Source of the DNA: a candidate division WOR-1 bacterium RIFOXYB2_FULL_46_45
GTDB lineage: Bacteria > Margulisbacteria > WOR-1 > XYC2-FULL-46-14
Length of the DNA stretch: 64,000 nt
Assembly (NCBI GenBank): GCA_001771585.1
Contig: MEUE01000003.1
Coordinates: 310,001 to 374,000 of the forward strand
Reading direction: 5' to 3'
Shown here: piece after piece, positions 40,257-43,625 of the stretch
Layout: the number at the start of each line of letters is the position of its first letter
Numbering within the stretch: position 1 is the stretch's first letter
Notes under the pieces: generated by a model
The model's input: the letters and a program-made list of their open reading frames with translations, nothing else
Told to the model about the DNA's origin: nothing
Databases searched by the model: none
Made by a program: the position numbers and the translations under genes

Positions 40257-42293
40257 ATGAATTTTTTTGCCTTCAGCGCACTTATCAACGGAATAACCAG
40301 CGCTCTGCTGGGAATTTATGTCCTGGCAAACAGCTATAAAAACCCCCTAAACCGTAGTTATTCCGTTTTTGCTCTTAGTGTCTTCATTTGGAGCTTTGGA
40401 TATTTTTTCTGGCAAAACTCTTCCTCTGCCGAAAACGCTCTGCTTTGGTCGCGTATATTGATGGCCGGAGCAATCATGATTCCTTTATCCTATTTTGATT
40501 TTTCATTACACTTGACCGGCACCGTACTCCAAAACCGCCTCCAAAGCATTATCTCCTGTATCATCGGCATGTTTTTCCTTCTTGCAGATTTAACTCCGCT
40601 TATCGTAAGCGGCATATCAAAAAAAATGTATTTTGATTTTTGGCCGACCCCGGGACTTTTATACCCGTTTTTCCTGCTTATGTTCTTTTTTTATACCTTT
40701 TATTCACTTAGCATAATGTTGACAAAATTCAAAAAAAGTTTTGGCCAGGTCAGGCCGCAAATCATGTATGTTTTTTGGGGAACCGCCATAGGTTTTGCCG
40801 GCGGATCAACTAATTTCTTATTGTGGTACGATATTCCAATTCCTCCCTTAGCTAATATTTTAGTGTTGGCCTACCCTGTTTTTATGGCGATCTCGATCAC
40901 AAAACATCGGCTGATGGACCTTTCGGTAATTATCAGCCGTACGGCCGCCGAAATTCTGGCAATTTTATTTCAGGGAATCATTTATTTGAGTATGGTCTGG
41001 CTCTACCAAAATTATGTATCAAATCAAATTGACTCGCTCTTTATCACACTAACCGTAATCTACGGCATCTGGGTTGGACAAACCCATCAAGTGCTCCGCC
41101 TAAAAATACAAACAACAACCGACAAAGCAATCTTGCGGGGAAAATATGATTATTACAAAGAACTTTCTCTGGCATCCATTAAAGTAGGAGAAGATCTTTC
41201 TCTTTCAAGCATTTTGAAAGTCCTCTATGCTACTTTCTATGAAACTGTACAGATAAACAACCCCCGCATTTTTCTTCCCAATAATTTTACAACACCAATG
41301 GATTCAAAAAAATATGTGGTTTACAGCCGCGAAAACTTCACCCCTATAAAAGATGGCGAAGAAATTAGCATGGAAGAAAAACTAATCGAAGAACTAACAA
41401 AAAAGAGAGGACATTTACTAAACGAAAAAGACCATGACCGCAATCTTATTGTCCCCTGCCTGCTTGAAAACCGTTTAATCGCCATGTTTATCCTGGGGCC
41501 AAAACTCTCCCAGGATCCTTATACCGATGAAGATATCCAACTGCTAGAGGTTTTGGCCAGCCAGGTGGCCATTGCGCTTGATCACACTCGTTCCTACGAA
41601 AAAATAAAAGATGACCTCGAAGCTACCCAGATGCAGCTTGAACGCTCCCAGCGCCTGGCGTCACTGGGAACCCTAACCGCCGGGGTGACGCACGAAATCA
41701 GAAATCCCCTAACCGTCATCCGGCTGGAAACGCTGAAACTGCCGTCAAAGCCAAGGGACGTGGATGACTTGAAACAACGCAGTGATTTGATCGTAAAATA
41801 CGTCGACCGGATTGAATTGATTGTTGAAAAGATGCTCCACCTATCCCGCTTCAAAGCTCCCGTTAAAACCAAAGTCGACTTAAACTCGGTGGTTGAAGAA
41901 ACCTTCCCGTTCTTTTCAACTTCCAGCGCAAAAATCACCAAAGAACTCCAGCCGGTTCCAAAAATCGACGGCGATCCGGAAGAATTGGAGAGGGTCCTAA
42001 TCAACCTGATCCAAAACGCCGAATACGCCAAAGCTAAAAAAATTACGATAAAGACCTTTGTCGAAAAAAACAAGATCCATCTTGAAGTCTCGGACAACGG
42101 GAAAGGGATCCCCAAGGAAAACATTTCAAAGATATTTGATCCCTTCTTCAGCTCCCGGCATGAAGGGACCGGATTGGGACTGTCGATCGCCTATCGCATC
42201 ATCCGCGAACACGGGGGGACAATCACGGTCGACAGCGAGGAAGACAAAGGTACAACTTTTAAGATTGAGTTTGAGGCGGCTGCGGGGAAATAA
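40257..42293 (+). CDS. 7TM-GAF sensor histidine kinase
   Basis: The 678-residue kinase has a 7TM sensor domain (about 1-235) ending in ITKHRLMDLSVIISR, a GAF domain (about 290-440; PCLLENRLIAMFILGPK, DEDIQLLEVLASQVAIALDHTRSY), and a HisKA domain with His479 in GVTHEIRNPLTVI. The ATPase has NLIQNAEYA, DNGKGIP and GTGLGLSIAYRI. The same sensor type occurs without a kinase two genes upstream. Between them lies the acyltransferase-methyltransferase fusion, an arrangement that recalls synthase-receptor pairs of quorum sensing. A TATAAT at 40226-40231 may give it its own promoter; no ribosome-binding site is evident. Probable partner: the response regulator at 43.0-43.6 kb. Confidence 0.9.
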   Translation: MNFFAFSALINGITSALLGIYVLANSYKNPLNRSYSVFALSVFIWSFGYFFWQNSSSAENALLWSRILMAGAIMIPLSYFDFSLHLTGTVLQNRLQSIISCIIGMFFLLADLTPLIVSGISKKMYFDFWPTPGLLYPFFLLMFFFYTFYSLSIMLTKFKKSFGQVRPQIMYVFWGTAIGFAGGSTNFLLWYDIPIPPLANILVLAYPVFMAISITKHRLMDLSVIISRTAAEILAILFQGIIYLSMVWLYQNYVSNQIDSLFITLTVIYGIWVGQTHQVLRLKIQTTTDKAILRGKYDYYKELSLASIKVGEDLSLSSILKVLYATFYETVQINNPRIFLPNNFTTPMDSKKYVVYSRENFTPIKDGEEISMEEKLIEELTKKRGHLLNEKDHDRNLIVPCLLENRLIAMFILGPKLSQDPYTDEDIQLLEVLASQVAIALDHTRSYEKIKDDLEATQMQLERSQRLASLGTLTAGVTHEIRNPLTVIRLETLKLPSKPRDVDDLKQRSDLIVKYVDRIELIVEKMLHLSRFKAPVKTKVDLNSVVEETFPFFSTSSAKITKELQPVPKIDGDPEELERVLINLIQNAEYAKAKKITIKTFVEKNKIHLEVSDNGKGIPKENISKIFDPFFSSRHEGTGLGLSIAYRIIREHGGTITVDSEEDKGTTFKIEFEAAAGK

Positions 42294-42305
42294 ATCCCAA
42301 ATCCA

Positions 42306-42327
42306 AAATCCCAAATCCCAATGAATC
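42306..42327 (+). repeat. Left 22-bp inverted repeat of the four-helix-bundle cassette
   Basis: AAATCCCAAATCCC then AATGAATC. Its reverse complement, with one mismatch (21/22), occurs at 42935-42956. A partial extra AAATCCCAAATCC copy lies directly before it from 42292, touching the kinase stop codon. Confidence 0.8.
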
Positions 42328-42450
42328 TTTTAATCTTCAAATCATTAAATTAAAATAAAAAAAGAAGCAAATTCGCGGTTCCAAGTTCAGCCAACGATCC
42401 TTATCCTTCGATCTGACGATCTGATTTGTCGCAGTAGAACTGGAGAAAGT

Positions 42451-42564
42451 TCCTCCGACCCCGATTTTATCGGGACAAAAAGATTTGGTCTAATCACGTC
42501 TTAAAAGGGCAATTTTGCGAATAAATCTTTTTGTGTTCCGACATAAAGTCGGAACGTCGGAGGA
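42451..42564. repeat. Nested multi-hairpin element
   Basis: Four exact inverted repeats are nested: TCCTCCGAC (42451-42459) with 42556-42564; CCCGAT (42460-42465) with ATCGGG (42469-42474); ACAAAAAGATTT (42475-42486) with 42523-42534; and GTTCCGAC (42535-42542) with GTCGGAAC (42548-42555). The RNA of either strand would fold into a branched structure closed by the outer stem. It lies in the gap between the kinase and the four-helix-bundle gene (42294-42570), which holds no other gene. Confidence 0.75.
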
Positions 42565-42570
42565 TTTTTT

Positions 42571-42969
42571 CTATTGGATTTTTACCTTATTGATTATTGC
42601 GCTCAAAATTAGAACTAATTCATTGGCCTCCCCAATTAACGTGACCAATTCCGGGCATTCCAGTCGATTAACCTGCTGTATCAATCTGAGCCAGTATTTT
42701 GATTCTCTGGCTTCCCTGCGGGCAATCGCCATTTTATTAATAAAATCCTTTTTTGTTAAAGTTCCATCCGCTTCTTCCAAATTTGCCCCAATTGATCCGC
42801 TGGATCTTATTAGTTGTTTTCCATATTCCAATGTGGCTTGATTTTTTATTGTTTTGTTTGTAAAAATTCCAACTCGAACCGCAAAATCCAATCCTCTTTC
42901 CTTAATGTCATATTTTTTTGATTTGGATTTTGTTGATTCATTTGGATTTGGGATTTGGTCATTTGTCAT
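42571..42969 (-). CDS. Four-helix-bundle protein (S23/23S-IVS type)
   Basis: The 132-residue protein fits the four-helix-bundle family first seen in intervening sequences of 23S rRNA genes. Segments: KKYDIKERGLDFAVRVGIF, YGKQLIRSSGSIGANLEEADG, TKKDFINKMAIARREARESKYWLRLI. Its first ~16 residues (TNDQIPNPNEST...) are encoded by the right inverted repeat, so the repeat supplies the start codon context. Here it is not in an rRNA gene. Function unknown; members are thought to bind nucleic acid or ribosomes. Flanking repeats suggest a mobile cassette. Confidence 0.88.
   Translation of the reverse strand: MTNDQIPNPNESTKSKSKKYDIKERGLDFAVRVGIFTNKTIKNQATLEYGKQLIRSSGSIGANLEEADGTLTKKDFINKMAIARREARESKYWLRLIQQVNRLECPELVTLIGEANELVLILSAIINKVKIQ
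42935..42956 (-). repeat. Right 22-bp inverted repeat of the four-helix-bundle cassette
   Basis: Reverse complement reads AAATCCCAAATCCA then AATGAATC, matching the left copy at 21 of 22 positions. The two bound a 651-bp segment. The repeat lies inside the 5' end of the coding region. Confidence 0.8.
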
Positions 42970-43022
42970 TATACAGTATCTGTTAGCAATTTTGCCGCCT
43001 GCTGACTATCCTCTTCCTATTC

Positions 43023-43625
43023 TTATGCCTTTGTAGGCGGCGGCTGCTTAGCGGATTTTTTCTTTTGCTTTCGTTCTTCTTCTTCCCGTTCGCGTTCTTT
43101 TTCTTCCTCGTCCATCTTCTTCCTGACCCGCTCCCTGATCTTTTCGGGATCAAACTCGCGCTTGACGCGCAGGGCAAATTCCTTGGCGTTGGTCCTAAGG
43201 TTGGTCATGTCCATCATATGTTCTTCATTGCCGGCAAAAAAATCTTCAAGATGGTTTAAAAGGGTCGAAGGATTAAACGGCTTGGTAATGTAGCCGACCA
43301 CCATCCCCTGCCGGGCTTTCTCCCATTTTTCCTCGTCTTCCCAGGCGCTCAAAATGATAACGCCGATCCGCTCCATATACTCTTTCCGAATCTTTTCCAA
43401 AAATTCCAGCCCGTCCATCTCCGGCATTTTTATGTCAAGGATGATACAGCGGACCCGGTTGGGGATCAGCCCCATGACCCGCTTGTTGCTTTTGAGCATC
43501 TTTAACGCCTCCGGGGCGGAATAACAGGTGATCACATCGTACTTGCCGGTGTCCTTAAGCAATTCGGTGATCGAATCGGCAATATCTTTTTCGTCGTCCA
43601 CCACCATTATCAACGGTTTCATCAT
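43023..43625 (-). CDS. Response regulator with charged C-terminal tail
   Basis: The 200-residue protein has one receiver domain (1-130): acidic pair Asp10-Asp11, phospho-acceptor Asp64 in CIILDIKMPEMDG, Ser93 in ILSAWEDE and Lys115 in YITKPF. There is no DNA-binding or enzymatic output domain. Instead residues ~150-200 form a helical tail of Glu/Arg/Lys repeats (EEKEREREEEERKQ) likely to make a coiled coil or protein contact. It converges with the 7TM-GAF kinase across the four-helix-bundle cassette and is the nearest candidate partner; pairing is inference. Confidence 0.88.
   Translation of the reverse strand: MMKPLIMVVDDEKDIADSITELLKDTGKYDVITCYSAPEALKMLKSNKRVMGLIPNRVRCIILDIKMPEMDGLEFLEKIRKEYMERIGVIILSAWEDEEKWEKARQGMVVGYITKPFNPSTLLNHLEDFFAGNEEHMMDMTNLRTNAKEFALRVKREFDPEKIRERVRKKMDEEEKEREREEEERKQKKKSAKQPPPTKA

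Follow-up and report, generated by a model that had tools for sequence, protein, structure and literature searches.

The 23S rRNA intervening sequence (IVS) of Coxiella burnetii, described in Warrier 2016 (PMC4990558), is 428 nt long and closed by a terminal stem of 28 bp; its S23 open reading frame (ORF) is preceded by tandem heptameric repeats, the number of which depends on the strain. S23 ORFs within rRNA inserts of CPR bacteria are reported in PMC11270868, and the 23S rRNA IVP is named in a figure legend of a large-scale scan for CRISPR-linked genes (PMC10910872); repeat arrays beside S23 genes might be mistaken for CRISPR arrays. An S23-family protein of Xanthomonas is a toroidal homopentamer, as cited in PMC4990558. 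S23 relatives form pentameric rings; the structural relative 2rld also has five chains. To our knowledge, no catalytic role has been described for the S23 protein.

Short repeats of two other kinds resemble the locus described here. Rickettsia palindromic elements are short palindromes dispersed in genomes, and the cyanobacterial STRR belong to the known heptanucleotide repeats. For the enterobacterial RU repeats, PMC2759123 predicts signal peptides that stem from small mobile repeats. The TAACTGA repeats of Beggiatoaceae are tandem 7-bp units, often situated just before start codons and patchy across phyla (MacGregor 2015, PMC4679880, in the sections consulted, where S23 goes unmentioned); unlike them, the arrays reported below come in inverted pairs and go with an S23 gene. 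In the open-access literature searched, subscription papers and preprints aside, no paper was found that links S23 to flanking repeat arrays outside rRNA.

Structure of the element

A 64,000-nucleotide stretch of the genome of the WOR-1 bacterium RIFOXYB2_FULL_46_45 (hereafter the window) carries two inverted copies of the 22-mer AAATCCCAAATCC(C/A)AATGAATC, identical at 21 of 22 positions (Table 1). A first-pass annotation, made from the sequence without database searches, had taken them for the ends of a possible mobile cassette around an S23-type gene. The pair is confirmed (100 shuffles of the window give an expectation of 0 matches), and the encoded four-helix-bundle protein belongs to the S23 family by its matches to PF05635 (E 3.7e-18; 66.1 bits, cut-off 33.8) and TIGR02436 (E 1.9e-22; 79.5 bits, cut-off 24).

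That the 22-mer itself marks the ends is not supported, as it is part of a degenerate heptad array. Both arms consist of 7-bp units, e.g. AAATCCC and ATGACAA, and they extend beyond 22 bp, each corresponding to one half of a palindrome that occurs at other places in the genome without an S23 gene (96% identity over 51 bp for the proximal arm, 83% over 58 bp for the distal one). The element thus delimited measures about 679 bp (42292-42970), and its arms beat 100 of 100 dinucleotide shuffles in the locus test described below. The right arm does encode residues 2-12 of the S23 protein (TNDQIPNPNES), as had been noted; the ATG (42967-42969) lies just beyond the 22-mer, within the longer arm.

Table 1. 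Features of the S23 locus and its surroundings, in window coordinates.
Feature	Position	Strand	Basis or remark
Histidine kinase gene	40257..42293	+	Flanks the insertion; conserved convergent partner
Distal terminal array (3' in S23 orientation)	42292..42349	-	Heptads of AAATCC on the + strand; complements the proximal arm and adjoins the histidine kinase stop codon
Left 22-mer copy	42306..42327	+	22-mer comparison and inverted-repeat search
Cloverleaf (four-way junction) repeat	42451..42565		Between S23 stop and distal arm; fold z -4.65 and -4.84
S23-type gene, 132 aa	42571..42969	-	PF05635 / TIGR02436
Proximal terminal array (5' in S23 orientation)	42920..42970	-	Heptads ATGACAA / AAATCCC; holds the S23 start codon and codes for the first residues
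Right 22-mer copy	42935..42956	-	22-mer comparison and inverted-repeat search
Response regulator gene	43023..43625	-	Flanks the insertion; conserved convergent partner

Like the rRNA IVS, the element has complementary ends around an S23 ORF (whole-element fold z -6.6, 20 shuffles), and the heptads recall the heptameric repeats that precede the ORF in Coxiella. Unlike the IVS, it lies between two protein genes, with no rRNA family match at 42000-43200, its relatives have units of 7-10 bp depending on S23 subfamily, and dispersed copies exist that lack S23. We read it as an element of the same kind as the rRNA IVS situated outside rRNA, which by its location falls outside the definition of the latter. 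That definition includes a place within an rRNA helix, which this element lacks, and also excision of the RNA by RNase III. No recombinase or transposase was found among the ORFs of the element, in agreement with the first-pass annotation.

The hairpin array which the same annotation had counted as part of the cassette is a four-way junction, and is treated here as an independent repeat family with further copies in the genome, at C1:987419 (81% identity), C1:953333 (76%), C3:206586 (74%) and C1:134335 (L437-L440). In a four-row alignment, 5 of 35 pairs have changed on both sides and still pair. The cloverleaf adjoins an S23 gene in two of its five places, an adjacency that may be due to chance. 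Some copies are followed by T runs, and the repeat is perhaps terminator-like.

Insertion between a histidine kinase and a response regulator gene

The element separates the convergent genes of a histidine kinase and a response regulator. An empty-site variant of this locus was found in all 13 best orthologous loci (L046-L058; kinase identity 41-60%), in which the pair lacks S23 and is arranged end to end: the window has 729 bp between the two stop codons, versus distances from overlap to 92 bp in the 13 relatives, the negative values being approximate owing to frame extension (e.g. L050). Since these relatives belong to other genera, the site is demonstrably empty but its exact junctions are not defined, and inspection by eye of the window element for a target duplication, also suggested at the outset, recognised none.

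In the nearest relative (L046), the 53 bp between kinase and regulator genes form a small palindrome of TAAG heptads without S23. Elsewhere, S23 elements with different arms were seen at apparently the same intergenic sites across genomes (L080/L098, L077/L081 and L097/L103), i.e. before tRNA-Gln, after a pilQ-like gene and before a pseudopilin gene, as named by eye.

Inverted arrays around S23 genes in other genomes

S23 loci were collected from relatives, from named genomes of more than 10 phyla selected by record title, and from whole genomes searched with PF05635. A 28-protein S23 alignment was too diverse for the scan and a 9-row alignment was used. At each locus the sequence before the conserved core was aligned to that after the stop codon, taken as its reverse complement, and a locus passed if it beat all 100 shuffles of its own flanks. 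In the named set, which leans toward relatives of the window protein because the best 80 of 572 candidates were kept, 67 of 77 usable loci passed (3 of the 80 were dropped as too short), compared to 2 of 145 random control intervals in the same loci. Over all sources (278 distinct ORFs, 7 dropped for short flanks), 188 of 271 testable S23-family genes from more than 10 phyla passed, being enclosed by inverted arrays specific to their locus, and 83 did not pass. Most of these S23 genes thus share the architecture of the window locus, a point that the first-pass annotation had thought worth checking; unit length and motif differ by subfamily.

The complementarity is specific to each locus. Arms match their own partner better than those of other loci, as exchanging partners among loci lowers the score from 17.5 to 9.7 (29 of 30 loci used; L090, at a contig end, was dropped) and from 19.8 to 10.7 in the named set, i.e. 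the best 80 of 572 candidates. In 74 of 84 window-type loci it is the upstream arm that is rich in A, so that the arms have a fixed orientation relative to S23; in 43/79 such loci the array lies inside the open frame. At L084, the repeats beside S23 appear by eye to be direct and not inverted.

Periodicity and sequence of the repeat unit

Arms are periodic, with an autocorrelation at 7 bp of 0.673 versus 0.373 for shuffled sequence (62 arms) and a best period of 7 or 14 in 59 of the 62. In the window subfamily, 78 of 84 arms have 7 as their best period. Other S23 subfamilies differ: the one with a DERFRxxDQIERSS-like sequence has ATCAG every 8 bp, that with RRVSQMRD has AGGGA about every 10 bp, and that with KTIDQIERASSS has AAGGC about every 9 bp. 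Members of one subfamily share their motif between phyla, such as CGTGAAG in L192 and L312/L340, ATCAG/ACCAG in loci of the class and in L365, and TAGTC/TAGTT in L360, L324 and L362. Matched arms contain a median of 5.0 units in the window type and 4.7 in the other types, with short arms cut by a 20-nt threshold.

Arm similarity was compared across genera for close S23 proteins grouped into disjoint pairs, with correction for composition and a permutation p. It reached 8.47 versus 1.80 expected for the window type (26 pairs, p=0.0002) and 7.64 versus 0.12 expected for other types (17 pairs, p=0.0002). An equal-period cross-group test over all loci was not significant (p=0.21), and non-window types gave no rank correlation over the full distance range (rho 0.003). 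The dependence therefore appears only among close relatives, where shared descent also acts, and descent of the protein together with its arms is not fully separated from recognition. Mere descent is nevertheless disfavoured, because unit and motif persist while arm sequences differ, at saturated or nearly saturated synonymous distances of S23. From these comparisons, the repeat unit seems to depend on the version of S23 present.

Differing insertion sites and selection on S23

One S23 element occurs in five cyanobacterial strains (L126, L143, L145, L148 and L155) with 80-89% identity over 373-518 bp. In 10 of 10 pairs the similarity breaks off at the ORF or else at or inside AGAATTT arrays, and the five sites have unrelated flanks. 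The sequence beyond the arms of L145 also shows self-complementarity, as though the element had landed in a hairpin loop, the way rRNA intervening sequences do.

On Planktothrix plasmids (L394-L396), an S23 element lies within a DISARM locus, flanked by drmD and the methylase gene, and its unit numbers vary between strains; the corresponding gap in Pseudanabaena lacks S23. A run of CGACTCC heptads without S23 was seen before the DISARM methyltransferase gene in Oscillatoria (L397, about 1890-1950).

The S23 gene is under purifying selection: dN/dS was 0.03-0.21 in all of the 16 close pairs listed for which dS was finite, and the remaining 9 of 25 were saturated. L291 and L292, from one genus, have a common S23 (dN/dS 0.06), and both arms are longer in one of them; such co-variation is expected if the two arms change together. 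TGGC-N-TTGC sequences upstream of the arrays in these two loci, and also in L078, L082 and L100, resemble sigma-54 promoters.

Gene-free copies and protein N-termini

Three long copies with both halves present and without S23 were found in the genome of the window (L016-L018), at C3:18222 (100%, as the query), C4:47559 (86%) and C1:586487 (84%). Occurrence of the 22-mer without an S23 gene had been named beforehand, if frequent, as refuting a cassette, and the 22-mer is indeed not specific to that gene; the copies in question look like a MITE-style short form, i.e. non-autonomous derivatives. Each is the start of a protein, namely FlgH (PF02107, E 3.5e-47), an SLH-domain protein and a third protein that looks secreted by eye. 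Start codon, basic stretch and hydrophobic stretch (maxima of 2.6-2.8 on the Kyte-Doolittle scale over 15 residues) all come from the repeat, which is in this sense a ready-made predicted signal peptide. Most related genomes have an FlgH with a short signal peptide of the ordinary kind. Array-like N-termini of FlgH were additionally observed in L405, L416, L419 and L423, and heptad arrays as N-termini or hydrophobic signal-like segments of secreted-looking proteins, besides L016-L018, in L025, L031, L033 and L035.

The related genome G025 contains short palindromes of this kind, 108-140 bp long, with heptad arms and small internal hairpins (L214-L228); of 15 stretches fetched, 13 have the 5' arm and 10 have both arms. 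A genome profile search gave no PF05635 match there despite the many arrays, and G001 likewise has arrays and no such match. An HMM of the 10 two-armed copies found their ends in 4 of 130 loci of the class, and at L076 and L084 its matches flank the S23 gene on both sides. Terminal inverted repeats common to dispersed copies at unrelated sites, as expected of transposons and MITEs, are thus present. As in MITEs, Rickettsia palindromic elements and RU repeats (PMC2759123), the short palindromes are dispersed and some lie in frame, including predicted signal peptides. They differ from MITEs and Rickettsia palindromic elements in having a plausible full-length partner that bears S23 and has the same ends, and in that these ends are tandem arrays and not one unique terminal repeat.

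Two further candidates were discarded. An array in prmC is no clean in-frame insertion, as it replaces a variable linker of equal length and adds no sequence. Phylum-wide heptad counts were not used as proof of S23 action, class membership being a confounder; that argument is weakened further by nonzero reversed-pattern controls in 11 genomes and by the arrays of G025 and G001.

Proposed explanation and alternatives

We consider it probable that the window segment is a mobile element akin to the IVS, with terminal repeats that are recognised by its S23 ring protein, an explanation in which binding and the recombining enzyme are both inferred. Mobility as first proposed is supported by the unoccupied kinase-regulator sites, by S23-less copies with the same ends, by the bracketing of most S23 genes elsewhere and by one cyanobacterial element at five unrelated sites. 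The locus would belong to a family of small mobile elements in which two inverted arrays of tandem units, 7 bp long here, bracket a single S23-family gene and mark the ends. The S23 protein would recognise the repeat unit of its own ends, most likely with one unit to each protomer and on DNA or RNA in single-stranded or hairpin form, and each subfamily would have its own unit length and motif because of this recognition. The transcript may fold into a long stem with the gene in the loop, as in 23S rRNA intervening sequences, which would be the same kind of element landed in rRNA, and cutting and joining would be left to host factors. Gene-less copies that retain the ends may spread or persist as MITE-like palindromes, some of them presumably taken over by host genes for their start regions and signal peptides. 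Against this reading count the 83 S23 genes that did not pass, the non-significant equal-period test over all loci and the missing rank correlation of the non-window types, empty sites that come from other genera, the negative results for a target duplication and a recombinase, the arrays of G025, the replaced linker in prmC, the direct repeats at L084 and the argument of the Coxiella authors (PMC4990558) that S23p is not made there.

The arrays could instead be ordinary interspersed heptad repeats that spread by other means, with S23 genes merely landing in or beside them. S23-less arrays are common in the class, also within and before other genes, and the two genomes with arrays and no PF05635 match fit this idea. 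We regard it as unlikely, as motif and unit length track the S23 subfamily across genera, the control intervals pass far more rarely than the loci themselves (among the best 80 of 572 candidates), and the A-rich upstream arm gives window-type loci a fixed orientation. The position of many arrays just before or within the start of the ORF, often in open frame, would also suit autoregulatory mRNA sites of a TRAP-like kind, at which S23 binds its own leader and the inverted complements and dispersal are secondary; a motif that tracks the protein and purifying selection on S23 agree with this. Such autoregulation, however, predicts neither an inverted second array past the stop codon, nor S23-less copies with two ends, nor one array-bounded element at five sites, and we hold it to be quite unlikely.

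A role for S23 as an Avd-like cofactor of a reverse transcriptase, with movement by retrohoming, was also examined. Avd of diversity-generating retroelements is a four-helix-bundle protein related to PF05635, according to PMC10053308, but the genome of the window, 99.5% complete, has no RVT_1 (PF00078) match, and reverse transcriptases are present in 6 of 22 S23-positive versus 10 of 35 S23-negative genomes. With no such enzyme in the window genome and its presence elsewhere not tied to S23, a reverse transcriptase partner was rejected; the locus does not qualify as a diversity-generating retroelement, and retrohoming seems very improbable. Low-complexity, A-rich arms do raise the number of chance matches, so that the 22-bp repeat might be accidental or purely local and S23 an ordinary horizontally acquired gene. 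The shuffles of the window, the locus test (in which 0 of 100 shuffles reached the observed score) and the recurrence of bracketing across phyla refute this, and we give it almost no credence.

Implications

A mobile IVS-like element with a repeat-recognising S23 protein would bear on two questions that have stood since the 1990s, the function of the S23 protein and the mobility of the rRNA intervening sequences. It is tempting to go further and see in S23 elements minimal mobile elements of a new class, devoid of their own nuclease, in which a toroidal pentamer reads one unit of 7-10 bp per protomer on paired arrays, with its own code in each subfamily, and of which the rRNA IVS and part of the unexplained heptad repeats, including the exapted signal peptides, are products; this wider proposal is possible and we put it forward tentatively. 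A repeat unit proper to each S23 subfamily offers a direct and cheap binding test. The proposal would join three puzzles, namely the rRNA intervening sequences, the dispersed heptanucleotide repeats and the gene starts made of palindromic repeats, and, if true, would suggest a ring protein with an evolvable code for tandem sequences.
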